A stretch of 64,000 bases of DNA, taken from positions 1-64,000 of the forward strand of contig JAIELW010000009.1 of the NCBI GenBank assembly GCA_019752575.1, given 5' to 3'. Position 1 is the first letter of the stretch. The number at the start of each line of letters is the position of its first letter. Source of the stretch: Xanthobacteraceae bacterium. GTDB taxonomy: Bacteria; Pseudomonadota; Alphaproteobacteria; Rhizobiales; Xanthobacteraceae. Shown here piece by piece: positions 42,221-58,658 of this stretch. The translations under genes and the position numbers were made by a program. Below the pieces are notes generated by a model. It made no database searches, had not been told where the DNA came from, and was given only the letters and a program-made list of their open reading frames with translations.

Positions 42221-42325
42221 TCCAAAGAAATGGAAGGACTCTCCGAAAGGTACAATGGCCTCAAAGACATACGGCGATAGAAAAATTCTATGGATGAGAA
42301 CCGGGAAAAGGATAGGCTTGTTGCC

Positions 42326-45889: not shown

Positions 45890-46651
45890 ATGAGTGCCGA
45901 AACCCGTTCCCGCGCCAAAACGCCGTTCCGGAGAAAGCTCGATTTACCGCCGGTATTTCGGGAAGTCGCGCTGCGCGAGTCCGGAAATGCCTTTGCTCAT
46001 GCGCAGGAAATTGCCGCCGAATCCGGCGCGGGCACACTGGTCTGGGTCGGACGTTTCGACCTCGTGGAATTCGCAGTCGTGCTGGAACCCGATGAGCCGC
46101 TCGTTGCCGCGCGGCGCGCGATTTACGCGGGGCTTGCGGCACTCGCGGATGCGCTCGCCGTTCACGCGCCTCCGGAAATGTCGCTGTTCTACGATTTTCC
46201 CGCGACGTTGAGATTTAACCACGGCCTCATCGGCGGCGGCCAACTCGCCTGGCCCGTGAATGCCAAGGAAACAGAGCGTCCTGACTGGCTGGTGTTCGGC
46301 GCCATGGTGCGCATGCATATCCTCGACAACCTCGAACCTGGCGAGCGCGCGTCTTTCGCCAGCATGGAAGACGAGGGTTTCGAGAATTTCGCGGCGGCAA
46401 CGCTCGTCGAAAGTTTTTCGCGGCATCTGATGACGCATATGGACGAGTGGCAGAATAACGGATTCTCGAAGGTGGCGCGGTCTTATCTCTCGCGGCTTCC
46501 GGCGGAATCGAATGTCGAGCGCAGCATCGATGGCGCCGGCGATGTGCTCACCCGCGAGAAAGGCAAGGCCGCCGTCAAAAAACAGAAGCTGCTTCCCGCG
46601 ATCGAGCGTGCGCTGTGGCTCGATCACAAGACCGGAGAGATTCTGCTTTGA
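45890..46651 (+). CDS. Biotin/lipoate protein ligase family protein
   Basis: This 253-residue protein begins with a short basic tail and then LPPVFREVALRESGNAFAHA and AGTLVWVGRFDLVEFAVVLEP, the pattern of the BPL/LplA/LipB-2 family. The ligase fold continues through GGGQLAWPVNA and DWLVFGAMVRM. I see no complete canonical GRGRxGR or lipoate-binding Lys motif, so it may not be an acyltransferase. It heads an overlapping run with DUF6505, DUF6352, DUF3305 and DUF3306 and is divergent from the polyferredoxin. A role in modifying or maturing a formate dehydrogenase subunit is inferred from position only. Confidence 0.7.
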   Translation: MSAETRSRAKTPFRRKLDLPPVFREVALRESGNAFAHAQEIAAESGAGTLVWVGRFDLVEFAVVLEPDEPLVAARRAIYAGLAALADALAVHAPPEMSLFYDFPATLRFNHGLIGGGQLAWPVNAKETERPDWLVFGAMVRMHILDNLEPGERASFASMEDEGFENFAAATLVESFSRHLMTHMDEWQNNGFSKVARSYLSRLPAESNVERSIDGAGDVLTREKGKAAVKKQKLLPAIERALWLDHKTGEILL

Positions 46652-47187
46652 AATTGCTGCGCACCATCCGGCTCGATCCCTCGGATACGTTCGTGTTCGA
46701 GAAGCCCGCCGAGCCTGGCGAATGGGCCGTTTCCGGCGCGTTCGAATATTGGGATCGGGATTTGAGCGCGCTTAACGGTAAGGAACGTGCCGCGTTCCGT
46801 GGCGGGTTTCTTGGCGTTTCCTCGATGGGCCGTTCCACGCTGGTCCAGATTGTAGAAGCGAAGGCAGGCGATCGCGCCGAGGTTGTCGAAACCCTCGCCC
46901 GCCAGCTGGTTGCGCATTACGGCGCGCCTGACGTGGAACGCGCGCGGGCGGCGGCAGAAGAGGAAGTCGCCTTCGCGGAATCGCTTTGTGAGTACCCGCC
47001 CGATATCCTTGTCGCCGTGCATCGCACAGTCGAAGAAGGCACGATCCGCGAGGCCTTTCGTTCTTTGCAGGCGTCAGAGAAAGGTCCGAAGCGTTTCCGC
47101 GCTTTCACCTTCCACCAGGTCGAAGGAGAAGAAGAGCCTGAAGAGCGCGTGGATTTCGCGGGCATGATCGAAGGAAAGCGCAAATGA
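46648..47187 (+). CDS. DUF6505-type protein of the formate dehydrogenase block
   Basis: This 179-residue protein starts with TTG overlapping the previous stop (TTGA): LKLLRTIRLDPSDTFVFEKP, followed by GEWAVSGAFEYWDRDLSAL and FRGGFLGVSSMGRSTLVQIV. It is soluble, acidic, and has only one Cys; no cofactor motif is visible. I assign the DUF6505 name from memory of similar neighbourhoods. Its function is unknown. It overlaps the genes on both sides, so it is made in step with the ligase-like protein and DUF6352. Confidence 0.65.
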   Translation: MKLLRTIRLDPSDTFVFEKPAEPGEWAVSGAFEYWDRDLSALNGKERAAFRGGFLGVSSMGRSTLVQIVEAKAGDRAEVVETLARQLVAHYGAPDVERARAAAEEEVAFAESLCEYPPDILVAVHRTVEEGTIREAFRSLQASEKGPKRFRAFTFHQVEGEEEPEERVDFAGMIEGKRK

Positions 47188-48188
47188 AAGATTTCTGGCT
47201 TTCCTGCGGGCATCACCTTCTGGATCGCGGCGAAGGCGGCGGGCTTGTCGTGACCGACGATTTCCTGAAAGTCTACTTTGCGCGGCCTGAATTGACGCCG
47301 CCGCCGGAGGCCTGCGTGGTCGAGCGTGCGCTGCATGCGGCGCTGCTCGACGAGCCGCGGCGCAAAGTCGAAGCCGATGAAATCGCTGCGATGGCCGACC
47401 CGGACGCGCGCGAGAACTGGCAAGTCGTTTTGGAATTCCGCGATCACCTGCTCAAGCATCCGACGCTTGAGGCGTCATATCTCGCGCTGGTTCGCGGCGG
47501 GGTAGGGCGCACGCCGCCGCTTTTCCTGAATCAGCTGGTGCACGTAATCCTGCGCAACGTACTCGACGAGTGCGAAGATCCTTTCGTGCTGCGCGCGGGA
47601 GAGATCTTCTTCCGCTCGCAGCGCGTGACGACGCATGAAGGTTCGCTGCTCGTGGCCGATGAGGAAACCATTGCCGGGAACAATCCGGCGCAGGTTTCGC
47701 CGCTGGTCGGCATGCTCGGCATCGAGAAGTCGGCCGAGATCGACGTGTTGAACGACGACAACGCGGAAACCTATTACGAGCGCAGCGACCGCTACGATAT
47801 GGCGCTCGACCTTACGGCGGGACGCCGCGGCCATGAAGCGCTTGGCGAAGTAATCGCCCGCTGGGTTGGGCATCTGCTTGCGGTCGAGGCGAGCGTAGTT
47901 CCCGTGGTCGAACTCAAAGATGCCCGTTTCACCTGGTATGTGGGTCTCGACGCCGAAGGGACCAGGATCGGCGACATGCTCTGGAACGGCGAAGGTCTGG
48001 ACGAAGGCGCGCAGGGACGCGTGGTTGCGCTCTACGCGCTGCGGACCGAAGGTGACGACGCGCCCGCCGACAAGGACATGCCGCCCGCCTATCTGATCCT
48101 CGGCATGACGGAAGAAAAGATGATGCGGATGAAGCCACAGAATCTTTTGACCGGCCTGAACGTCAAACGGCTGGAGACGGCGACATGA
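47184..48188 (+). CDS. DUF6352-type protein of the formate dehydrogenase block
   Basis: This 334-residue soluble protein starts MKDFWLSCGHHLLDRGEGGG and contains a long helical middle (LFLNQLVHVILRNVLDECED) and DVLNDDNAETYYERSDRYDM. There is a CGHH near the N terminus that could bind metal, but no known cluster motif. It overlaps DUF6505 (ATGA) and DUF3305. The family name is from memory; the function is unknown. The fixed company with DUF3305/3306, TorD and FDH3 points to maturation or quality control of that enzyme. Confidence 0.65.
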   Translation: MKDFWLSCGHHLLDRGEGGGLVVTDDFLKVYFARPELTPPPEACVVERALHAALLDEPRRKVEADEIAAMADPDARENWQVVLEFRDHLLKHPTLEASYLALVRGGVGRTPPLFLNQLVHVILRNVLDECEDPFVLRAGEIFFRSQRVTTHEGSLLVADEETIAGNNPAQVSPLVGMLGIEKSAEIDVLNDDNAETYYERSDRYDMALDLTAGRRGHEALGEVIARWVGHLLAVEASVVPVVELKDARFTWYVGLDAEGTRIGDMLWNGEGLDEGAQGRVVALYALRTEGDDAPADKDMPPAYLILGMTEEKMMRMKPQNLLTGLNVKRLETAT

Positions 48189-48697
48189 GCAAGCCGCTCG
48201 TTATCATCCCTGTCGGCGTGGTGGTGGAGCGCCTGAAGGCGCAAAGCCCGTGGATCGATCACATCTGGCAGCCTGCGAATGTGCTGGAAGGCGTGCCCGA
48301 CATGCAGCCGTGGACGCTGCTCGAGGGCAACAGCGATCGCGCGCTGTTTTACGCAGGACGTGCCGAGATCGGGCTTCATGCCGGCGACGCTGCGCATTAC
48401 CGCGAAAATCTTGTAACCGGCTATCCGAAGCTCTGGATCATCCTGCGGCCGACCGGCGTCGAGCCTCCGCTCGAACTCGTCATGGTGACCGCCGATCCGT
48501 TCGAAGGCGAGGGGCTAACCGAAAGCGCCACCGATCTGGTCGAACCGGTGCCGATGCCGGAGTCGATTCAAGGCGTACTCATGGCCTTCATCGACGAGCA
48601 TTATGTCGATGAGCCGTTCTTCAAGCGCAAACGCGACAAGGCAAATCCGGAGGCGTTCGCACGCCGCCCTGGCGGACTGACGGAGAAGAAAACGTGA
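48185..48697 (+). CDS. DUF3305 domain protein
   Basis: This 170-residue protein begins KPLVIIPVGVVVERLKAQSP and contains WIDHIWQPANVLEGVPDMQPW, with the DUF3305 ending MPESIQGVLMAFIDEHYVDEPFFKRKRDK. DUF3305 and DUF3306 are paired genes found with molybdopterin formate dehydrogenases. No reaction is known. The C-terminal lysine-rich helix could bind a partner. It overlaps both neighbours. Confidence 0.8.
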   Translation: MSKPLVIIPVGVVVERLKAQSPWIDHIWQPANVLEGVPDMQPWTLLEGNSDRALFYAGRAEIGLHAGDAAHYRENLVTGYPKLWIILRPTGVEPPLELVMVTADPFEGEGLTESATDLVEPVPMPESIQGVLMAFIDEHYVDEPFFKRKRDKANPEAFARRPGGLTEKKT

Positions 48698-49380
48698 GCA
48701 GCGAGGAAGAAGGCTTTCTCAATCGCTGGTCGCGCCGCAAGCAGGAGGCCGCGAAGGAGGCTGTTGAGACGGAGCTCGAAGCAGCGAAAGAGTCGGCGCC
48801 TGCCGAACCGGATGCCGCGGCCATCGAAACCGCGGAAGAAGAGTTCGACGTTTCGAAGTTGCCGCCAATCGATTCGATCACGGCCGGAACCGACATCCGC
48901 GCGTTTCTTTCGAAGGGCGTTCCGGCGGCCCTCACGCAGGCGGCCCTTCGCCGGGCCTGGAGCGCCGATCCGGCGATCCGCGATTACATCGGGCTGTCCG
49001 AATATTCGTGGGACTTTAATTCGCCCGGAATCGACGGTTTCGGTCCGCTCGATCCGTCAATAAACGTGCCGGAAATGGTCGCGGACGTTTTCGGAAAAGT
49101 GAAGCAAGCGGTTTCCGACGCGGAAGCGCTCGCGGAGAAAACTGACTCTCTGGTTGCGCAAACTCAATCTGCGGTTTTGCCAGCGGAGCCGTCGCGCTCA
49201 GTAGAACTGCGGAGCGAAAACGTAGAGGCCGCCGCGGTTCGCGAGCCCGGTTCGGTCCAGTCGGAAAACGAAGGCGGCGACAAAAGCGCGCTAGCTGCTG
49301 CTGCGCCGCACCAGCCTGAGTCGTCGAGCGAACAGGCGGCCGCGCCAGTTCGCCGTCATGGCACCGCGCTGCCGAGTTAA
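48694..49380 (+). CDS. DUF3306 domain protein
   Basis: This 228-residue protein starts GTG within the DUF3305 stop (GTGA) and opens EEGFLNRWSRRKQEA, the DUF3306 signature of a short WSRRK helix. The core follows: LPPIDSITAGTDIRAFLSKG, ALRRAWSADPAIRDYIGLSE and YSWDFNSPGIDGFGPL. The last 80 residues are low-complexity Glu/Ala/Ser. It acts with DUF3305; its role is unknown but tied to formate dehydrogenase loci. It ends the first transcription block; a 149-base gap with dyads follows. Confidence 0.8.
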   Translation: MSSEEEGFLNRWSRRKQEAAKEAVETELEAAKESAPAEPDAAAIETAEEEFDVSKLPPIDSITAGTDIRAFLSKGVPAALTQAALRRAWSADPAIRDYIGLSEYSWDFNSPGIDGFGPLDPSINVPEMVADVFGKVKQAVSDAEALAEKTDSLVAQTQSAVLPAEPSRSVELRSENVEAAAVREPGSVQSENEGGDKSALAAAAPHQPESSSEQAAAPVRRHGTALPS

Positions 49381-49392
49381 GCTCGTCCCACC

Positions 49393-49407
49393 TTGTGCGA
49401 TGCACAA
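49393..49407. promoter_or_regulatory. Perfect inverted repeat, candidate operator
   Basis: TTGTGC-GAT-GCACAA is a perfect 6-bp inverted repeat with a 3-base spacer, inside the A/T-rich gap ahead of the HTH-TorD gene. Its size fits a dimeric helix-turn-helix binding site. The binding protein is unknown. Confidence 0.45.
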
Positions 49408-49412
49408 CAAAA

Positions 49413-49440
49413 TAGCCGCCGCCTATATAGGCACAGGCTA
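49413..49440. promoter_or_regulatory. 28-bp dyad with palindromic core, candidate operator
   Basis: The core GCCTATATAGGC (49421-49432) is a perfect palindrome, and the outer arms TAGCC and GGCTA are also inverted copies centred on the same point. Twenty-two of 28 positions pair. The TATATA centre resembles ModE-type half-sites but does not match the full consensus. It lies about 90 bases upstream of the HTH-TorD start and may be its autoregulatory site. Confidence 0.5.
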
Positions 49441-49529
49441 TTGCATATTCTGCCTTGCGGGTTACGCTCTTTGAAACGGTTCTGAAGAAGCTCCGATTCA
49501 AAAAATTCTAATTCTAGAGTGAGGAAGAA

Positions 49530-50309
49530 GTGCGCGACCCAGGCTTGGATAAAGCCATTCGCTCCGCCGGCGGAGTTAGCGAACTTGCGCGCCGAATCGG
49601 AATCGCGCAGCCGTCCGTCTCCAACTGGAATCGGGTGCCCGCAGAACGCGTCGCCGCGGTCGAAGCTGCGACCGGAATTTCGCGCGCGATCCTTCGCCCG
49701 GACCTTTTCGGAGCAGATTTTCAAGTGAACGGAACGCTGGACGAAATCGATGTGGCTCGCGCGCAGGAATACGCGCTGCTCGCTGTTTTGCTTGCGAAAG
49801 CTCCCGATGCGGACCTGATCAAGCGCCTCGAAGAACTCGAAGGCGACGAGAGCGAGATGGGCCGTGTGCATACTGCGCTCGCCGATGCCGCAGCTTCGGT
49901 GAACGCACAGCAGGTAGAGCGCGAATACTTTGACGTCTTTATTGGCGTGGGCCGCGGCGAGTTGCTGCCTTACGCTTCCTTTTATCTGACGGGCTTTTTG
50001 CATGAGCGGCCGCTCGCACGCCTTCGCGGCGATCTCTTTCTGCTCGGCATCGAGAAGAACGACGACAATCCGGATCCGGAAGACCACATCGCATTTCTGT
50101 GTGAGATCATGGCCGGCATTGTCAGCAAGCGTTTTCCTGCGCCGGTCGGCGCGGATCGCCAGTTTTTCGAGAAGCACATCAAGCCATGGGCGAGCCGCTT
50201 CTTCGCGGATCTTGAAGCCGCTGACAGCGCAAAATTCTATCGCAGCGTCGGCAAACTCGGCCGCGTATTCATCGAAATCGAAACGGAAGCTTTCGCGCTG
50301 CCCTCATAA
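49530..50309 (+). CDS. TorD-family chaperone with an N-terminal helix-turn-helix domain
   Basis: This 259-residue protein joins two parts. Residues 1-60 (LDKAIRSAGGVSELARRIGI, QPSVSNWNRVPAERVAAVEA) form a Cro/YdaS-type DNA-binding helix-turn-helix. Residues about 75-250 are a TorD/DmsD-like all-helical chaperone (AREYFDVFIGVGRGELLPYASFYLTGFLHE is the family signature region). TorD proteins hold TAT-exported molybdoenzyme precursors and protect the apo-enzyme until cofactor is loaded. The GTG start has AGGAAGAA upstream. It precedes the small TAT protein and FDH3 alpha, its likely clients. The domain joining suggests that the chaperone also senses apo-enzyme to control transcription; this is inference. 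Confidence 0.82.
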   Translation: MRDPGLDKAIRSAGGVSELARRIGIAQPSVSNWNRVPAERVAAVEAATGISRAILRPDLFGADFQVNGTLDEIDVARAQEYALLAVLLAKAPDADLIKRLEELEGDESEMGRVHTALADAAASVNAQQVEREYFDVFIGVGRGELLPYASFYLTGFLHERPLARLRGDLFLLGIEKNDDNPDPEDHIAFLCEIMAGIVSKRFPAPVGADRQFFEKHIKPWASRFFADLEAADSAKFYRSVGKLGRVFIEIETEAFALPS

Positions 50310-50344: not shown

Positions 50345-50545
50345 ATGAAACAGCAGGACAAGAAGGCGGTCGGACGGCGCGAGTTCTTGCGCACGATGGG
50401 CGCGGGTGCGGGTGTCGCTGCGGTGGCCGCGACTCCGATGGCGGCAACCCAGGCTGCCGCGCAGACGAAAGAAGATCCGAAGACGAAGGCGCGTTATCAG
50501 CTCACTGATCACGTGAAGACCTTCTATCGCGTTAACAGCAACTAA
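50345..50545 (+). CDS. Formate dehydrogenase-region TAT target small protein
   Basis: This 66-residue protein has a twin-arginine signal, VGRREFLRTMGAGAGVAAVA, with cleavage near ATQAAAQ, and a short mature part ending RYQLTDHVKTFYRVNSN. It matches the small TAT-signal family encoded next to FDH3 alpha genes. The mature peptide has no Cys or cofactor motif and may be a structural subunit or a piece pulled across with the enzyme. It starts after AAGGAGG and ends 12 bases before the alpha subunit. Confidence 0.85.
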   Translation: MKQQDKKAVGRREFLRTMGAGAGVAAVAATPMAATQAAAQTKEDPKTKARYQLTDHVKTFYRVNSN

Positions 50546-50557
50546 GGGGAGGCGCCC

Positions 50558-53512
50558 GTGCTGATCAAAAGAACGGAACGCGAAGCACGCCGCAGCCAGT
50601 TGGCGGCATCGCTCAGTGTGAATTCGAGCGGCGGTATGAACCGCCGTACCTTCCTGCGCCGCTCCGGTCTTGCCGCCGGCGGTCTCGCTGCCGTAGGCGC
50701 GCTGCCGCTCGCCGGTGCGCGCCATGCCGAAGCAGGTCCCGTGCCGCCCGCCGGTGCGAAGATCGAGATCAAGCGTAACATCTGCACCCACTGCTCGGTC
50801 GGCTGCACGGTCGTAGCCGAAGTCGCGAACGGCGTGTGGATCGGTCAAGAGTCCGGATACGAAAGCCCGATCAATCGTGGCTCGCATTGCGCCAAGGGCG
50901 CGGCGGTGCGCGAGCTCGTACACGGCGATCGCCGCCTGAAATATCCGATGAAGCTTGTGAACGGTCAGTGGACTCGCGTGTCGTGGGAAACCGCGATCAA
51001 CGAGATCGGCGACAAGATGCAGGCGATCCGTGCCAAGTCCGGCCCGGACTCGGTGTACTGGCTCGGCTCGGCGAAGTTCTCCAACGAAGGCGCCTATCTG
51101 AACCGCAAGTTCGCGGCCTACTGGGGCACCAACAACGTCGATCACCAGGCGCGTATCTGCCACTCGACCACGGTGACGGGCGTCGCCAACACTTGGGGTT
51201 ACGGCGCGCAGACCAACTCCTACAACGACATCCGCAACTCGAAGACGCTCATCATCATGGGCGGCAACCCGGCGGAAGCGCATCCAGTTTCCTTGCAGCA
51301 CTTGCTTGAGGGCAAGGAAAACAAGCGAGCGAACTTCATCGTCATCGAGCCGCGCCTTACCCGCACGGCCGCGCATGCCACCGAATATGTGCGCATCCGC
51401 TCCGGCACCGACATTCCGGTTGCTTGGGGCATCATGCACCACATCTTCAAGAACGGCTGGGAAGACAAGGAATTCATCGCCCAGCGCGTGGCCGACATGG
51501 ATCTCGTCCGCAAGGAAGTGGAGAAGTGGACGCCCGAAGAAGTCGAGCGGGTCACCGGCGTGCCGGGCGAGCAGCTCGCCCGCGTAGCCAAGATGTTCGC
51601 GACCGAAAAGCCTTCGACACTCATCTGGTGCATGGGCGCGACCCAGCACACCGTAGGTACTTCCAACGTCCGCGCGTTCTGCAATCTGCTGCTCGCGACA
51701 GGTAACGTCGGCAAGGTTGGCACCGGCGCCAACATCTTCCGCGGCCACTGCAACGTGCAGGGTGCGACCGACCTCGGCCTCGATATCGGTACGCTGCCGC
51801 TCTATTACGGCCTCGTGCCGGGCGCATGGGCGCACTGGGCGCGCGTCTGGGAGACGGACCTGAACTGGCTCAAGGCCCGCTTCGCAGACGAAAAAATGAT
51901 GGGCGCGGTCGGCATTCCGTCGACCCGCTGGTTCGACGCGGCGACCTTGCCGAAAGAACGCGTCACGCAGAACGACAACATCAAGGCGATGATGGTGTTC
52001 GGACACGGCGGCAATACGGTCACCCGTATGCCGAAGGCGAAGGAGGGCATCGAGAAGCTCGATCTTTTGGTCGTCGCCGACCCGCACCCGACCACCTGGG
52101 CTGCGCTCTCGGAGCGGAAGGACAACACCTATCTCCTCCCGACCGGCACCCAGTTCGAATGCGACGGTTCGCGTACCGCCTCGAACCGTTCGCTTCAGTG
52201 GGGCGAGCAGATCGTAAAGCCGATCTTCGAATCCAAGAACGACTACGAAGTGATGTATCTCCTCGCCAAGAAGCTCGGCTTCGAAAAGGAGATGTTCAAG
52301 AACATCAAGGTCGAAAATAATCAGCCGCTCGCCGAAGATATCCTCCGCGAAATCAATCGCGGCGGCTTCTCGACCGGCTACTCCGGCCAGTCGCCGGAAC
52401 GCCTGAAGGCGCACATGAAGCATCAGGACAAATTCGACCTGGTGACGCTGCGCGCCGCGAAGGACGCGCCGGCCGAGATCGCCGGCGATTATTACGGCCT
52501 GCCGTGGCCGTGCTGGGGCACGCCGCAGATCCGGCACCCCGGCTCGCACACGCTCTACAACACCAACCTGCACGCCAAGGACGGCGGCGGCACGTTCCGC
52601 GCGCGCTTCGGTGTGGAACGCGTCGTCAAGACGAAGGTGATGGAAGACGGCAAGGAGGTCGAGAAAGAGCAGCGCTTCAATCTGCTCGCCGAGGGCTCGT
52701 ACTCGCTCGGCTCCGAACTCAAGGACGGTTACCCGGAGTTCACCTACGGCGTCTTGAAGAAGCTCGGCTGGGACAAGGATCTCACCGACGCGGAGCGGGC
52801 CACGATCGAGAAGATCGGCGGCAACAACCCCGACGGCGTCGGCTGGGCGATCGATCTCTCCGGCGGCATTATCCGTGTCACGCTCGAGCACGGTGTGATG
52901 GCTTACGGCAACGGCAAGGCCCGCGCGGCTGCGTGGAACCTGCCGGACCCGGTGCCGGTGCATCGCGAGCCGATCTACACCCCGCGGCCTGAACTCGTTG
53001 GCAAGTTCCCGACCTACGCCAACGCACAGCGCTTCCGCGTGCCGGACATCGGCTTCGACGTGCAGAAGGCCGCGGTGGACAAGGGCGTCGCCAAGCAGTT
53101 CCCGCTGGTACTCACTTCCGGCCGTCTCGTCGAATATGAAGGCGGCGGCGAAGAAACCCGCTCCAACAAGTGGCTCGCAGAACTGCAGCAGGACAGTTTC
53201 ATCGAGATCAATCCTGCGGATGCATCCGAGCGCGGCATCAGGGATGGCCAGTGGGTTTGGGTCAGCGGTGCCGAAAACGCCCGCGCCCGCGTCAAGGCGC
53301 TGGTCACCCCGCGCGTCGGCAAGGGCGTCACCTGGATGCCATTCCACTTCGCGGGCTGGTTCCAGGGCGTCGATCAACGCAAGAACTACCCGGCAGGTAC
53401 CGATCCGATCGTGCTCGGCGAGAGCGTGAACACGGTGACAACCTACGGCTTCGACCCGGCGACGGGTATGCAAGAACCCAAAGCAACCCTCTGCCAAGTC
53501 GCAGCAGCATAA
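50558..53512 (+). CDS. FDH3-type formate dehydrogenase, alpha (catalytic) subunit
   Basis: This 984-residue protein has a TAT signal (NRRTFLRRSGLAAGG, residues 28-42), so it works in the periplasm. The [4Fe-4S] ligands are Cys 76, 79, 83 and 111; the metal ligand is Cys 201 in NNVDHQARICHST, not selenocysteine. The bis-MGD domains follow, with CMGATQHTVGTSNVRAFC and GNNIFRG-type NIFRGHCNVQGATDLG. It oxidises formate and passes electrons to the beta and gamma subunits. The start GTG at 50558 adds about 25 residues before the signal; a start at ATG 50636 (MNRRTFLRR) would remove them and is a reasonable alternative. Confidence 0.93.
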   Translation: MLIKRTEREARRSQLAASLSVNSSGGMNRRTFLRRSGLAAGGLAAVGALPLAGARHAEAGPVPPAGAKIEIKRNICTHCSVGCTVVAEVANGVWIGQESGYESPINRGSHCAKGAAVRELVHGDRRLKYPMKLVNGQWTRVSWETAINEIGDKMQAIRAKSGPDSVYWLGSAKFSNEGAYLNRKFAAYWGTNNVDHQARICHSTTVTGVANTWGYGAQTNSYNDIRNSKTLIIMGGNPAEAHPVSLQHLLEGKENKRANFIVIEPRLTRTAAHATEYVRIRSGTDIPVAWGIMHHIFKNGWEDKEFIAQRVADMDLVRKEVEKWTPEEVERVTGVPGEQLARVAKMFATEKPSTLIWCMGATQHTVGTSNVRAFCNLLLATGNVGKVGTGANIFRGHCNVQGATDLGLDIGTLPLYYGLVPGAWAHWARVWETDLNWLKARFADEKMMGAVGIPSTRWFDAATLPKERVTQNDNIKAMMVFGHGGNTVTRMPKAKEGIEKLDLLVVADPHPTTWAALSERKDNTYLLPTGTQFECDGSRTASNRSLQWGEQIVKPIFESKNDYEVMYLLAKKLGFEKEMFKNIKVENNQPLAEDILREINRGGFSTGYSGQSPERLKAHMKHQDKFDLVTLRAAKDAPAEIAGDYYGLPWPCWGTPQIRHPGSHTLYNTNLHAKDGGGTFRARFGVERVVKTKVMEDGKEVEKEQRFNLLAEGSYSLGSELKDGYPEFTYGVLKKLGWDKDLTDAERATIEKIGGNNPDGVGWAIDLSGGIIRVTLEHGVMAYGNGKARAAAWNLPDPVPVHREPIYTPRPELVGKFPTYANAQRFRVPDIGFDVQKAAVDKGVAKQFPLVLTSGRLVEYEGGGEETRSNKWLAELQQDSFIEINPADASERGIRDGQWVWVSGAENARARVKALVTPRVGKGVTWMPFHFAGWFQGVDQRKNYPAGTDPIVLGESVNTVTTYGFDPATGMQEPKATLCQVAAA

Positions 53513-53524
53513 GGAGCAACGAAC

Positions 53525-54121
53525 ATGGCCCGTATGAAGTTTCTCTGCGACGCCGACCGTTGCATCGAATGCAACGCCTGCGTCACTGCCTGTAAAAACG
53601 AACACGAAGTACCGTGGGGTATCAACCGCCGCCGCGTCGTGACCATCAACGACGGTCTGCCCGGCGAACGTTCGGTCTCCATGGCCTGCATGCACTGCAC
53701 CGACGCGCCCTGCGCGGCGGTGTGCCCGGTGAACTGCTTCTTCACTACCGCCGACGGCGTCGTCCTGCACTCGAAGGATCTCTGCATCGGCTGCGGCTAT
53801 TGCTTCTACGCGTGCCCGTTCGGCGCGCCGCAGTATCCGCGGGTCGGCAACTTCGGTTCGCGCGGCAAGATGGATAAGTGCACCTTCTGCGCCGGCGGTC
53901 CGGACCCGGCAAACACGCAGGCTAACTTCACGCAGTACGGCACCAACCGTCTCGCCGAAGGCAAGCTCCCGCTCTGCGCGGAGATGTGTTCGACCAAATC
54001 GCTCCTCGCGGGCGACGGCGACATCATCGCGAAGATCTACAAGGAGCGTGTTGCGAAGCGCGGTTACGGTTCCGGCGCGTGGGGCTGGAAGACGGCTTAC
54101 CGCGAGACCATCGCGGGCTAA
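53525..54121 (+). CDS. FDH3-type formate dehydrogenase, beta (4Fe-4S) subunit
   Basis: This 198-residue protein has four ferredoxin-type clusters: Cys 13/16/19/23 (CIECNACVTAC), 55/58/63/67 (CMHCTDAPCAAVC), 87/90/93/97 (CIGCGYCFYAC) and a C-terminal set starting CTFC. It wires the catalytic subunit to the membrane cytochrome. It has no signal of its own and should cross with the alpha subunit as a complex. It lies 12 bases after the alpha stop. Confidence 0.93.
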   Translation: MARMKFLCDADRCIECNACVTACKNEHEVPWGINRRRVVTINDGLPGERSVSMACMHCTDAPCAAVCPVNCFFTTADGVVLHSKDLCIGCGYCFYACPFGAPQYPRVGNFGSRGKMDKCTFCAGGPDPANTQANFTQYGTNRLAEGKLPLCAEMCSTKSLLAGDGDIIAKIYKERVAKRGYGSGAWGWKTAYRETIAG

Positions 54122-54193
54122 TGTATCGCGCGCGGCGGGGAAACCTGCCGCGCTTTTTTGGGGCAAGAAGAAATTCAAGACGGGAGTAGAAGC

Positions 54194-55180
54194 ATGACGC
54201 TTCAAACGCGCATCCGCACCATTGTCGGCGTTTTCGCGATCGCATTCGCAGTCGCATTCGTGACGCCCGCCGCGGCTCAGTCGGTTAATCCGACCGCAAG
54301 TTCGGTCAACGAAGAAAAGCTTCTCAAGGAACTGAACCAGATTTCGGGCCGCTGCACGCTGCCAAACCAGACCGCGTGCAACATCGAAATTCCGGCGAAC
54401 CGTGAGTGGCGCGATTTCCAACAGGTTACGCTTCGCTGGATCGCGGCGATCTCGATCGTCGGCGTGTTTGCGCTGCTCGTGATCTTCTATCTCACTCGCG
54501 GCATGGTGAAGATCGAAAGCGGCCGTTCGGGACGCACGGTTACGCGCTTCAACGGCTACGAGCGCTTCGTGCACTGGATGACGGCGACCTGCTTCATCAT
54601 TCTCGCGTTGTCGGGCCTCAACATCACGTTCGGCAAAGCGCTCTTGTTACCGATCATGAGCCCGGAAGCCTTCACCGCGATCTCGCAGTGGGGCAAATAC
54701 TTCCACAATTACCTCAGCTTCCCGTTCACCATCGGCACGATCATGATCTTCCTGATGTGGATCGGCGGGAATATTCCGAACAAGACCGACATCGAGTGGG
54801 CGAAGCGCGGCGGCGGCATCGTCGGCAAAGATCATCCTCCGGCATACCGCTTCAATGGCGGCCAAAAGATGATCTACTGGATCGTCGTCCTTGGCGGTGC
54901 CGCGGTCGCGATCTCGGGCTACATCCTGATGTTCCCGTTCTACGGGACCACGGTCAGCGGCGTTCAGCTCGCGCAGATCGTTCACGGCATCGTTGCGGCG
55001 CTCTTTATCGCCGCCATGCTCGGCCACATCTATATCGGCACGATTGGTATGGAAGGCGCGTTCGAGGCGATGGGCTCGGGCGAGGTCGATGTGAATTGGG
55101 CCAAGGAGCATCACAAGCTTTGGCTCGAAGAGGAAATGGGCAAGGGAAGTCCCCGTGCCAAGGCGCAGCCAGCCGAATAG
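54194..55180 (+). CDS. FDH3-type formate dehydrogenase, gamma (cytochrome b) subunit
   Basis: This 328-residue membrane protein has an N-terminal signal-like segment, a 50-residue periplasmic part with two Cys (SGRCTLPNQTACNI), and four to five membrane segments carrying heme b ligands: RFVHWMTATCFIILALSG, YFHNYLSFPFTIGTIMIF, and IVHGIVAALFIAAMLGHIYIG. It anchors the complex and passes electrons toward quinone. The C terminus (EEMGKGSPRAKA) is cytoplasmic. ATG 54194 is preferred; the frame extends upstream to 54158 without a better start. Confidence 0.9.
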   Translation: MTLQTRIRTIVGVFAIAFAVAFVTPAAAQSVNPTASSVNEEKLLKELNQISGRCTLPNQTACNIEIPANREWRDFQQVTLRWIAAISIVGVFALLVIFYLTRGMVKIESGRSGRTVTRFNGYERFVHWMTATCFIILALSGLNITFGKALLLPIMSPEAFTAISQWGKYFHNYLSFPFTIGTIMIFLMWIGGNIPNKTDIEWAKRGGGIVGKDHPPAYRFNGGQKMIYWIVVLGGAAVAISGYILMFPFYGTTVSGVQLAQIVHGIVAALFIAAMLGHIYIGTIGMEGAFEAMGSGEVDVNWAKEHHKLWLEEEMGKGSPRAKAQPAE

Positions 55181-55408: not shown

Positions 55409-56245
55409 TTATGCGCCGGGCACCGTCGCATTCGGGAAGAACAACTGCTCGCCATTGATCTTGTAATCGGAGATTGCCTTCTGGCCCTCCGGCGAAACCA
55501 GCCACTCGATGAATGCCTGGCCGAGTTCCCGCTTTACATGCGCGTGCTTCGCAGGATTCACGAGCATGACGCCGTACTGGTTGAACAGCCGTTTGTCGCC
55601 TTCGACCGAGATCAGGAGCTCGCCACGGTTCTTGAAGGAGAGCCAGGTACCGCGGTCGGCAAGCACATAGGCGTTCGAGGCTGACGCTGCGTTGAGCGCC
55701 GCCCCCATGCCCTGACCGATATCGCGATACCAGGGGCCCTTATCGGCGGCGATATCGACGCCCGCGACCTTCCAGAGATTGAGTTCGGCGCTGTGCGTGC
55801 CGGATTTGTCGCCGCGCGAGATGAAAGCGGCGCCGGCATTCTTGATTTTCACGAGCGCAGCCGCGATGTCTTTCGTGCCGTTGACCTTCGCCGGATCGCC
55901 CTTCGGCCCGATCAGCACGAAGTCGTTATACATGACCGGGGAGCGCTTCACGCCGAAGCCGTCAGCCACGAATTTCTCTTCCTGAGATTTTGCATGGACG
56001 AACACGACATCGGCGTCGCCCCGGCGGCCGGTGTCCAGCGCCTGTCCGGTGCCCTGCGAGATGACGCGCACCTCGATGCCGGTCTTTGCCTTGAAGAGCG
56101 GCAGGATATGCCCAAACAAGCCGGAATCCTGCGTCGAGGTGGTCGAGGCGAGAACGATCGACTTGTCCTGCGCGAGCACGCTCTGTCCCGCGGCGGCGCC
56201 GAGGACGATAAGGCCCATTGCAATCGCATGGTTGAGTTTAAACAC
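55409..56245 (-). CDS. tupA: Tungstate ABC transporter periplasmic binding protein
   Basis: This 278-residue protein has a signal peptide ending near VLAQ and the TupA hallmark ASTTSTQDSGLFGHILP, where the TTSTQDS loop binds the oxyanion. Further family segments are DVVFVHAKSQEEKFVADG, SRGDKSGTHSAELNLW and GQGMGAALNAASASNAYVL. TupA prefers tungstate over molybdate. The GTG start follows GGAGGAAAAA. It is the last gene of the tupB-tupC-tupA operon, in a locus full of Mo/W cofactor genes. Confidence 0.92.
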   Translation of the reverse strand: MFKLNHAIAMGLIVLGAAAGQSVLAQDKSIVLASTTSTQDSGLFGHILPLFKAKTGIEVRVISQGTGQALDTGRRGDADVVFVHAKSQEEKFVADGFGVKRSPVMYNDFVLIGPKGDPAKVNGTKDIAAALVKIKNAGAAFISRGDKSGTHSAELNLWKVAGVDIAADKGPWYRDIGQGMGAALNAASASNAYVLADRGTWLSFKNRGELLISVEGDKRLFNQYGVMLVNPAKHAHVKRELGQAFIEWLVSPEGQKAISDYKINGEQLFFPNATVPGA

Positions 56246-56268
56246 GAGTTTTTCCTCCGTTCTTGTTT

Positions 56269-56991
56269 TCAGATCAGCAGGTCACCCGCCTGGAAGCGGC
56301 GGGCTTCTTCGGTTTTCGGTTGTTTGAAGAAAGTCTCCGACGCGGAGTGCTCGACGATCCTGCCGCGATGAAGCAGGATCACGTCGCCCGCGAGCCGGCG
56401 CGCGGTGCCGAGATCGTGCGTCGAGAGCACAATCTTCACGCCGCGGTTCGCGACTGCGCGCAAGACGTCTTCGACAGATTTCGCGGCAGCGGGGTCCAGA
56501 CTCGCAGTCGGCTCGTCGAGAAGCAGAATTTCCGGATCGCGTGCGAGGCTTCGCGCGAGCGCGAGCCGCTGCTGCTCGCCGCCGGACAGGCGCCGCGCAG
56601 GCCGGTCCTCGAAGCCGGAAAGCCCGACGAGCGCCAGCAGCTCGGCGATCTTCCGCTTGCGCTCTCCGCGCGGCGTTTTTACGGAGGCGAGTGCGTAATC
56701 GATGTTGCCCGCCGCGGAGCGCATGAGCATCACGGGCCGCTGAAACAGAAACGCACGGCGGACCGGTGCCGCGTGCTGGCGTCTGCCCCAGGTGATGCGG
56801 CCCGCGCCCGGCTCGAGCAGACCCATGCCCAGACGCAGCAGCGTCGTCTTGCCGGCGCCATTCGGCCCGATCACCGCCGTCGGCGCGCCGTTCGAGATCG
56901 TAAGAGATCCGATGTCGAGAATGCTGCGGTTTCCGGCCCGATATTCGATCCGGTCGAATTGAAGCGGCAGGTCGCTGTCGGGTGCGCGCAT
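56269..56991 (-). CDS. tupC: Tungstate ABC transporter ATP-binding protein
   Basis: This 240-residue ATPase has Walker A GPNGAGKTTLLR, the signature RLSGGEQQRLALARSLARDP and Walker B ILLLDEPTASLDP. No C-terminal TOBE domain of the ModC type is present, as expected for TupC. The frame is open upstream through tupB, but ATG 56991 gives the natural start and overlaps the tupB stop by one base (TGATG). Together with TupB it drives tungstate uptake. Confidence 0.88.
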   Translation of the reverse strand: MRAPDSDLPLQFDRIEYRAGNRSILDIGSLTISNGAPTAVIGPNGAGKTTLLRLGMGLLEPGAGRITWGRRQHAAPVRRAFLFQRPVMLMRSAAGNIDYALASVKTPRGERKRKIAELLALVGLSGFEDRPARRLSGGEQQRLALARSLARDPEILLLDEPTASLDPAAAKSVEDVLRAVANRGVKIVLSTHDLGTARRLAGDVILLHRGRIVEHSASETFFKQPKTEEARRFQAGDLLI

Positions 56992-57683
56992 CAGGTGGCT
57001 CCCGCCAGCCGCTCGCCGGTGCGCCGCACGAACCATGCGAGGGCGTTGATTGCGATCACGATCAGGAGCAGCACGGCGCCGAGGCCGATCGCGAGCGGCA
57101 AGTCGCCTTTCGACGTTTCGAGCGCGATGGCCGTCGTCATCGTGCGCGTGAAGCCGTCGATATTTCCGCCGACAATAATGACAGCACCGACTTCCGCGGA
57201 AGCGCGGCCGAAACCTGCAAGCAGCGCGGTCAGCAGGCTGAAGCGGCCGTCCCAGAGCAGCGTCGCAACGCTGCCTGCGGTGCCGACGTTCATCGCCGCG
57301 AGTTCGTCGCGATACTGCACCCACAGATCCGCGATGGTCTGCCGCGCGAGCGCTGCGATGATCGGCGTGATCAGGATCGCCTGTGCGATGATCATTGCGC
57401 GTGGCGTAAACAGTATTCCGAACGAACCGAGCGGGCCGGAGCGCGAGAGCAGGAGAAAAACCGCGAGACCGACGACGACCGGCGGCATGCCCATCAGCGC
57501 ATTCACGATAACGATGACGGCGTTGCGGCCGGGAAATTCTTTCAGCGCCAGCAGCGCGCCGAGCGGCAAACCGGCCAGTGCCGCGATGAGCGTTGCAGTC
57601 AGGCTCACATAAAGAGAAAGGCTGATGATGCGATAGAGGGCGGGATCGCCGGTGATGAGCATCCAAAAAGCAGACGAAAACAC
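56991..57683 (-). CDS. tupB: Tungstate ABC transporter permease
   Basis: This protein of about 230 residues has five to six membrane segments and the binding-protein-dependent permease EAA-type loop RDELAAMNVGTAGS, followed by GFGRASAEVGAVIIVGGNI. I chose GTG 57683 because AGAGGGG lies eight bases upstream; a longer start at 57731 would add 16 residues without a ribosome-binding site. It is the first gene of the tup operon, divergent from the HTH/PBP regulator. Confidence 0.88.
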   Translation of the reverse strand: MFSSAFWMLITGDPALYRIISLSLYVSLTATLIAALAGLPLGALLALKEFPGRNAVIVIVNALMGMPPVVVGLAVFLLLSRSGPLGSFGILFTPRAMIIAQAILITPIIAALARQTIADLWVQYRDELAAMNVGTAGSVATLLWDGRFSLLTALLAGFGRASAEVGAVIIVGGNIDGFTRTMTTAIALETSKGDLPLAIGLGAVLLLIVIAINALAWFVRRTGERLAGAT

Positions 57684-57770
57684 GATCTCTACCCCTCTGA
57701 ATTTGATTGCATTTATAACGGGATAGGTCAATTATACGGAGAAGGTGCATACATATGCAGGTCAGTTCAT
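57684..57770. promoter_or_regulatory. Divergent tup/regulator promoter region with candidate operators
   Basis: Three signals stand out. TGCATA-CA-TATGCA (57746-57759) is a perfect inverted repeat just ahead of the regulator ATG. AGGTCAATT (57725-57733) and AGGTCAGTT (57759-57767) are direct copies 34 bases apart. TTATAACG at 57713-57720 resembles a ModE-type half-site. One or more of these should be bound by the regulator at 57771 to control both directions. No binding evidence is available. Confidence 0.5.
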
Positions 57771-58658
57771 ATGAGCGATCTCATGACCACGGAGGAGGCG
57801 GCGTCCTATCTCCGTCTCTCTGAGCGCAAGCTCTACGATCTCGTCGCCGCCGGCGCGGTGCCCTGCACGAAGGCGACCGGACGCTGGTTGTTTCCGAGAT
57901 CGGATCTCGATCACTGGCTCGCGGTCGAAGCGATCAAACCAAATGCGCTTTCGCGCATCCCCGCGCCACAGATTGTCGGCGGCAGTCAGGATCCATTGCT
58001 TGATTGGGCGTTGCGCGAGAGCGGCTCGGGCCTCGCAAGCCTGCCGGAGGGCAGCGAGAGCGGTTTGCGCCGTTTGCGAAACAAGGAAGTTATTGCGGCA
58101 GCCATTCACTTGCATCGTCTGGACGGCAACGACGAAAACGCGAACCTCGAAGCAGTGTCCTCGGACTCGAGCCTGTACGATGCAGTCGTCGTTTCGTTTG
58201 CACGAAGAGAGCAGGGCCTGCTCGTCGCGCCGGGCAACCCGAAGCAGCTCTCGGATATGAAGTCGGTAGTAAAAAGCAGATCGCGGCTTGCGGTACGGCC
58301 GCAGGGCGCCGGCGCACAACTTCTGTTACTCGCGCTATTGAAGACCGCTCAGGCCGATCCCGGCCAGATTTCTAAGGACGCGCCGGTCTGCCACACCGGC
58401 GCCGACATCGCGCAAGCCGTGCGAGAAGGGCGCGCCGATTGCGGTATCGCGACGCGCGCAGTGGCCGTGGCGGCCGGTGTCGATTTCGTTTCGCTCACTT
58501 GGGAGCGGTTCGATCTCGTGCTGCGGCAGCGGGATTATTTTCTGCCGCCGCAGCAATCTCTGTTCAATTTCTTGCGCAGTGCTTCATTCAGAAACCGCGC
58601 GAAAGAACTGCCCGGATACGACATTGCGGAGGCCGGGCAAATCCGGCTGGTAACCTAG
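57771..58658 (+). CDS. Helix-turn-helix regulator with PBP-like sensor domain
   Basis: This 295-residue protein has an excisionase/MerR-like winged helix at residues 1-55 (MTTEEAASYLRLSERKLYDL, ATGRWLFPRSDLDHWL) and a C-terminal periplasmic-binding-protein-like domain (about 100-290: SLYDAVVVSFARREQGLLVA, RSRLAVRPQGAGAQLLLLAL, GRADCGIATRAVAVAAGVDF). The sensor domain is of the same kind as that fused to MoeA at 32532. There is no signal peptide. Divergent from tupBCA, it probably senses tungstate or molybdate in the cytoplasm and controls the importer. The frame is open far upstream; ATG 57771 gives the normal HTH start. Confidence 0.82.
   Translation: MSDLMTTEEAASYLRLSERKLYDLVAAGAVPCTKATGRWLFPRSDLDHWLAVEAIKPNALSRIPAPQIVGGSQDPLLDWALRESGSGLASLPEGSESGLRRLRNKEVIAAAIHLHRLDGNDENANLEAVSSDSSLYDAVVVSFARREQGLLVAPGNPKQLSDMKSVVKSRSRLAVRPQGAGAQLLLLALLKTAQADPGQISKDAPVCHTGADIAQAVREGRADCGIATRAVAVAAGVDFVSLTWERFDLVLRQRDYFLPPQQSLFNFLRSASFRNRAKELPGYDIAEAGQIRLVT

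Follow-up and report, generated by a model that had tools for sequence, protein, structure and literature searches.

It is still an open question how cells adjust the production of complex metalloenzymes to the cofactor and chaperone that they have available. BirA and ModE are one-component regulators with an enzyme or a binding protein as sensor, phage Cro is a free small repressor, and in the GroE/HrcA, DnaK/sigma-32 and flagellar FliT/FlhDC systems the chaperone and the DNA-binding protein are separate. In the literature searched (titles and beginnings of abstracts, most subscription papers lying outside the search) there was no report of a protein joining a helix-turn-helix (HTH) to a TorD chaperone, and term searches inside a survey of the NarJ subfamily (PMC4464133), a review of maturation (PMC10609526), a study of FDH chaperones (PMC6239281) and a paper on Eggerthella regulators (PMC9734109) gave no sign of one; the last gives a TorD chaperone as a gene that may be a target. 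The RefSeq label of the Bradyrhizobium copy is simply 'molecular chaperone TorD family protein'. Here we analyse such a fusion, found in a 64-kb stretch of DNA (hereafter the window), together with its relatives and the DNA upstream of them.

A helix-turn-helix head on a TorD-family chaperone

The fusion gene and its parts are as follows.

49530..50309, + strand: HTH-TorD fusion gene, GTG start, 259 amino acids (open reading frame, domain and structure comparison)
49533..49706, + strand: YdaS/Cro-type helix-turn-helix, residues 2-59 (PF15943, Xfaso 1 Cro fold, identity over 59 fusions)
49608..49628, + strand: recognition-helix core QPSVSNW, residues 27-33; the codon of residue 29, which tends to vary with the operator, is 49614-49616
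49707..49745, + strand: variable linker, residues 60-72 (mean pairwise identity 0.256)
49746..50306, + strand: TorD/NarJ-family chaperone domain, residues 73-259 (PF02613, YcdY/DmsD fold), with a PEDH motif at residues 183-186
49522..49527, + strand: Shine-Dalgarno-like AGGAAG, found by eye

A first-pass annotation, made from the sequence alone, had read residues 1-60 as a Cro/YdaS HTH and the rest as a TorD/DmsD chaperone, a division that is borne out by Pfam, by matches to solved structures and by an AlphaFold2 model. The Pfam family YdaS_toxin (PF15943) matches residues 6-62 (E 2.8e-14, 53.1 bits against a cut-off of 30) and Nitrate_red_del/TorD (PF02613) residues 106-225 (E 1.5e-27, 96.7 bits against 22.2), and the best solved structures by sequence are Xfaso 1 Cro for the head (3bd1, residues 6-63, E 2.9e-07) and TorD for the body (1n1c, residues 73-248, E 0.0011). 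In the model, built from an alignment of 59 family members (mean pLDDT 89.6) and compared with VIA-align 2, residues 3-61 superpose on 3bd1 (Z 9.8, rmsd 1.6, 59 aligned, 46% identity), i.e., the N-terminus, for which the annotation had proposed structure prediction, is predicted to fold as an HTH; folded alone and without an alignment, the head reaches a pLDDT of 74.3. The model from residues 68-73 to 258-259 lies on the YcdY/DmsD fold (Z 18.7-19.5), with an all-helical REMP fold of the chaperone half (Z 19.5 to YcdY and 18.9 to DmsD in the predicted model). The TorD and DmsD equivalog cut-offs (NF003442, NF008632) were not reached (56.4 bits against 132 and 33.7 against 162), and by these profile scores the chaperone half is a member of the TorD family that is neither a TorD nor a DmsD equivalog.

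Over 59 fusions, P28, S31, W33, P37 and R40 of the head and P183, E184 and D185 of the chaperone domain are invariant, and mean pairwise identity is 0.676 in the head, 0.73 in the recognition-helix region, 0.565 in TorD and 0.256 in the linker. Comparison of the head with three close relatives gives dN of 0.041-0.069 at dS of 1.0-1.2, indicating purifying selection, and by these measures constraint on the head is no weaker than on the chaperone half. The source genome has one match to the fusion protein.

An artefact of assembly, frame or start choice was rejected because the full-length fusion recurs across many genomes and starts at or near the same place; a few relatives lack a start codon at residue 1, their frames beginning slightly upstream. 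A YdaS toxin of a phage toxin-antitoxin pair was likewise rejected: this is the head of a 259-residue chaperone in front of fdhA, not a small free protein, and the Pfam name is only a label.

Recurrence of fusions in front of formate dehydrogenase operons

Genomes were drawn from the order (397 genomes), the class, the phylum (398 genomes) and four families, and 155 distinct TorD genes were compared once loci with an identical TorD part had been collapsed (29 duplicates dropped). In the draw of the order, 169 of 397 genomes had a match and at least 38 of 397 a match to both domains (a count that takes in the source genome and a genome that occupies two rows). Almost all the remaining strong matches begin no earlier than query residue 49, with one beginning at 39, and so correspond to TorD without a head. 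Ten of 11 named loci are fusions, including records from Nitrobacter, Bradyrhizobium and Pseudolabrys, and the draws of class and phylum added fusions from other alphaproteobacterial orders, with no both-domain match from outside the Alphaproteobacteria among the matches listed for the sparse 398-genome draw of the phylum.

The search for further HTH-TorD fusions that had been proposed with the annotation returned three types of head. Type A, with a QPxxSxW-like recognition helix as in the window, accounts for 79 of the 155 TorD genes, all from Alphaproteobacteria and all with fdhA after them; type B carries another YdaS-type head with a VWHW or IWHW helix (15 of 155), and type C an XRE head (1 of 155). 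YdaS is matched by the four proteins scanned from types A and B, but not by type C, for which the matches are HTH_31 and HTH_3. The remaining 60 genes are unfused; no HTH was found by Pfam in the 22 of their frames with at least 45 residues open before TorD, the other frames leaving no room for one. As read from these comparisons, the HTH-TorD fusion is old and kept.

In a quick tree of the TorD part (LG+G4), a branch with support 98 sets off a side that holds all 79 type-A rows and, among these, 12 unfused ones. Type B falls into two groups, both separate from type A, and type C is placed elsewhere. From this topology, heads were gained or exchanged at least twice; a separate origin of the type-A and type-B YdaS heads, suggested by the many unfused rows standing between them, would raise this to three times. 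Two genomes of one genus (G620 and G517) carry different heads on this chaperone, XRE-type and YdaS-type (L141, L146). Genome G171, which has a fused copy (L010/L072), also has an unfused TorD paralogue after DUF3306, without the operator described below and without fdhA downstream (L051), a natural control inside one genome. YdaS-type heads also occur in frame with other proteins, one resembling NAD(P)HX repair (L142) and others with some other C-terminal part (L150-L152; names by eye); L142 and L150-L153, where a YdaS-like head stands on a frame other than TorD, were excluded.

The genes around the fusion in the window are:

48694..49380, + strand: DUF3306 gene, upstream, ending 149 bases before the fusion gene
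50345..50545, + strand: small TAT-signal protein (TIGR02811)
50558..53512, + strand: formate dehydrogenase alpha subunit (FdhA), the presumed client, with a twin-arginine signal by eye
53525..54121, + strand: FDH iron-sulfur subunit (4Fe-4S domains)
54158..55180, + strand: FDH cytochrome b subunit (PF01292)

The fusion gene had been said to stand directly before the small TAT protein and FDH3 alpha, and it does: the TIGR02811 protein follows, then FdhA. FdhA is matched on the same strand no more than 2.5 kb downstream of all 95 fusions (79 of type A, 15 of type B, 1 of type C) and of 57 of 60 unfused genes, and a DUF3306 match lies upstream of 78 of the 79 type-A fusions. The gap to DUF3306 is below 40 bases in none of 91 fused genes (types A and B) versus 12 of 40 unfused ones, the gaps of the latter being shortened by setting the start at the first start codon of the frame.

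Five co-directed genes precede the operon in the window at 45890-49380 (biotin/lipoate-ligase-like, DUF6505, DUF6352, DUF3305 and DUF3306) and are perhaps further FDH maturation factors; the same five precede the fdh operon in a Bradyrhizobium plasmid, and a Sinorhizobium plasmid stretch shows the last four. Beside the operon, at 55409-58658, are an ABC transporter (PBP_like_2 binding protein and ATPase), of tungstate/molybdate type by eye, and a regulator-like ORF, also by eye; the transporter suggests a link to cofactor metal supply.

A conserved dyad upstream of type-A fusions

The intergenic DNA between DUF3306 and the fusion gene contains two candidate operators.

49412..49426, + strand: operator 1, ATAGCCGCCGCCTAT; ATAR-N7-YTAT, second-best match in the 64-kb window (12.6 bits), the match being kept there in the three nearest relatives
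49427..49441, + strand: operator 2, ATAGGCACAGGCTAT, abutting operator 1; best match in the window (18.3 bits), its 15 bases identical in the three nearest relatives

The window was scored with a matrix trained without the window's own clade. Two dyads had been noticed upstream, without coordinates, in the first-pass annotation; dyads are indeed present, but the unit kept in relatives is ATAR-N7-YTAT, here in two abutting head-to-tail copies, and the conspicuous GCCTATATAGGC is only their junction. A third match in the window, ATAGAAAAATTCTAT at 42277-42291, has a low score (8.2). Just above the operators is a TTGTGC-N3-GCACAA dyad (49394-49408), kept in part and only in the nearest relatives, which may be the site of a second regulator, and one clade (L006, L007, L008 and L072, with a variant in L081) has a second dyad of the kind GGAATAATTCC below the operator.

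The pattern was read from the upstream DNA of the first 48 fusions and fixed on those 48, where it lies within 260 bases upstream of the start in 48 of 48 loci (dinucleotide shuffles: mean 0.21, maximum 2). It was then found in 31 of 31 distinct type-A fusions fetched after it had been fixed, a total of 79 of 79, and also in the Bradyrhizobium sp. 184 plasmid copy, which is outside the 79 counted. Weighted column content shows an island, C-ATAG-S-N5-S-CTAT-G, with no other column from -45 to +69 above 0.31 bits, and this isolation indicates that the dyad is not a mere by-product of close relatedness. The half-sites are 11 bases apart, about one helical turn.

Could the dyads act as RNA, a leader hairpin controlling translation or termination? 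The 149 intergenic bases do fold better than shuffles (z -3.44), a score to which pairing between the two operators contributes. Most relatives, however, have a single dyad of 4-5 pairs around a poorly conserved 7-base centre, there is no Rfam match and no terminator-like site, and the dyad stands above or inside the inferred promoter. An RNA element was rejected on these grounds as highly improbable.

Across the source genome the pattern occurs at 24 places versus 35 for a reversed control, i.e., it is not enriched, and a wide regulon was rejected; the protein thus looks like a regulator of one operon or a few. Fifteen of the 24 places were scored with the matrix. One, 364 bases before a Peripla_BP_2 gene (L126 1501-1515, C1:48498), reaches 19.0 bits, above the window's best of 18.3; another (L131, 18.0 bits) lies across the start of a gene that by eye resembles phosphoglycerate mutase; and L133, L134, L136 and L137, at 13.1-15.8 bits, exceed operator 1. 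The source-genome sites beyond the window operators are taken as chance, and there may be a small regulon.

The operator goes with the head

In unfused TorD genes the dyad is rare: ATAR-N7-YTAT lies within 350 bases upstream in 3 of 60, in 2 of the 37 with DUF3306 before and fdhA after, and it is kept in 1 of the 12 unfused rows on the type-A side of the tree. It is also absent from all 15 type-B genes, which have instead ACAAA-N4-TTTGT at no more than one mismatch (15 of 15, exact in 10), a motif found and counted on the same 15 rows, many of them closely related and with no held-out set; the corresponding counts are 0 of 60 for unfused and 4 of 79 for type A, single-base shuffles averaging 0.09. 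The one type-C row has neither dyad.

Within type A, variation at residue 29 of the recognition helix can be set beside variation of the operator, whose class at loci with several sites was taken from the site most symmetric in its outer seven positions. Ser or Thr at this position (71 rows) is accompanied by ATAG/CTAT in 70 and by a mixed site in one (L170), never by ATAA/TTAT, and Ala (8 rows) by ATAA/TTAT in six, a mixed site in one (L171) and ATAG/CTAT in one (L181). The tree requires at least three changes to ATAA/TTAT, each with Ala29, as well as five changes of residue 29; since an independent-pairs test offers too few pairs for significance, the tendency of residue 29 to vary with the operator is treated as suggestive. 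Mixed secondary sites occur in L038 and L084.

These observations bear on the idea that another fdh regulator uses the dyad, the fusion's HTH being either a relic or a module for protein contacts. In its favour, loss of TtmR in Methylobacterium extorquens is reported to raise expression of the periplasmic fdh3 (PMC12180729). However, the dyad accompanies the HTH and seldom stands at this locus when the HTH is missing, it differs by head type and tends to change with residue 29, and five residues of the head are invariant, which leaves this idea very unlikely. Binding of the protein to DNA ahead of its own operon, as the annotation had it, is strongly supported by these comparisons: an operator in 79 of 79 type-A fusions versus 3 of 60 unfused genes, a second head with a second operator, and a tendency of helix and operator to vary together. 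The fusion is very probably a DNA-binding, autoregulating chaperone.

Position of the operators relative to candidate promoters

Two hexamers, inferred by eye, follow the operators in the window.

49441..49446, + strand: -35-like hexamer TTGCAT, sharing its first T with operator 2 (TTGACY there in several relatives)
49463..49468, + strand: -10-like hexamer TACGCT after a spacing of 16 bases, read off aligned relatives; weak

A strict sigma-70 scan found no promoter in the DNA upstream of the fusion gene in the window. In 9 of 9 rows of the f144-type group, which belongs to type B, TTG and a hexamer starting with TAR are separated by a gap of 16-17 bases that the second dyad fills (the hexamer ends in T in 8 of 9); around the dyad of the six remaining type-B rows no such promoter is seen. 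Some type-A sites also lie inside TTGNCN-N16-TATNNT spacers, e.g., in L205 (TTGACA-N16-TATGGT), L013 (TTGCCG-N16-TATAAT) and L014. Counted over type A, at least four of the six letters of TTGACA stand at the spacer position in 12 of 87 sites and abut the operator, as in the window's relatives, in 11 of 87; a fixed geometry for type A was rejected, no offset being strongly ahead when hexamers were aligned on the operator (z 1.9 and 2.3). Because some operators sit between -35 and -10, repression is favoured, and binding probably represses.

The alternative for the window's clade is activation, with the fusion sitting beside the -35 (centre about -41 of the inferred start) and recruiting RNA polymerase, as lambda CI does at PRM, until the client-bound chaperone releases and synthesis of unmatured enzyme stops. 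In the window and in several relatives operator 2 does share its last base with the start of the -35-like hexamer, and measured against the consensus the window promoter is weak. In six Bradyrhizobium-type loci (L002, L003, L005, L009, L039 and L040) the operator is about one turn higher, with TTGAC 8-10 bases below the dyad, an arrangement that does not look like plain repression and would also allow activation. Yet the spacer placement in part of type B and some type-A clades is repressor-like, and the promoter positions were inferred by eye; we consider activation rather unlikely.

A candidate circuit responsive to enzyme maturation

The explanation we favour, and consider reasonably likely as a whole, is a one-component autoregulator that has a molybdoenzyme-maturation chaperone as its sensor. 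A dimer of Cro-like heads, expected because the operator is a dyad, would bind ATAR-N7-YTAT at the promoter from which HTH-TorD, the TAT protein, fdhA, fdhB and cytochrome b are transcribed as an operon; the TorD half would bind FdhA produced from this operon, either by its signal peptide or in the apo-form; and occupancy of the TorD half would alter DNA binding, so that operon output would track the state of enzyme maturation. The last two steps draw on the biology of the TorD family and on gene order. In the most likely version, the free protein would repress, and engagement by precursor FdhA would lift repression until there is enough chaperone. Reporting of maturation to the promoter by the TorD half is plausible, and the presence of fdhA downstream of 95 of 95 fusions is consistent with it; client sensing by this half, most likely of unmatured FdhA, has a slightly better than even chance of being correct.

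All the operator evidence would fit equally well with a plain autorepressor and stoichiometry controller, in which the HTH limits the operon and the TorD half does no more than mature FdhA, without switching. The best PHROG match of the head is a transcriptional repressor family, and the variable linker shows no conserved mechanical coupling. On the other hand, three different heads are found on the same TorD at the same operon, so physical linkage to the chaperone seems to matter where a free Cro-like repressor would otherwise do, and we regard a controller without switching as unlikely. Returning to the one-component autoregulator, the more specific proposal, in which a respiratory enzyme acts through its signal peptide or apo-form as the inducer or corepressor of the operon encoding it, with a chaperone as the sensing half of a transcription factor and three heads joined to that same chaperone, two with a recognisable operator, stands at about even chances.

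If true, the state of protein folding would join the signals read by one-component regulators, and the system might serve as a genetic reporter for TAT precursor or apo-enzyme. With sensor, chaperone and DNA-binding head in one 259-residue protein, a defined 15-base operator and relatives in Bradyrhizobium isolates, the question is directly testable.

Comparison with known systems

The whole C-terminal domain resembles the TorD/DmsD/NarJ maturation proteins (PF02613; YcdY 9m26, DmsD 3efp, TorD 1n1c) in sequence family and fold, and a gene beside a twin-arginine molybdoenzyme is common to both, whereas the fusion adds a predicted N-terminal DNA-binding domain with a conserved operator. The head resembles YdaS and P22-type Cro regulators (PF15943, PF14549; Xfaso 1 Cro 3bd1) in sequence, fold and symmetric operator; no phage record matched the fusion protein, and, in contrast with phage Cro, the Cro-like domain is here the head of a chaperone at a respiratory operon. 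Like BirA and ModE, the fusion has a DNA-binding head and a sensor in one chain that would control genes of its own pathway, but its sensor is a protein-folding chaperone and its ligand would be a protein, not a small molecule. Finally, the proposed logic is that of GroE/HrcA, DnaK/sigma-32 and flagellar FliT/FlhDC titration, in which the availability of a chaperone is reported to a promoter, with the difference that here the chaperone and the DNA-binding part form one polypeptide.
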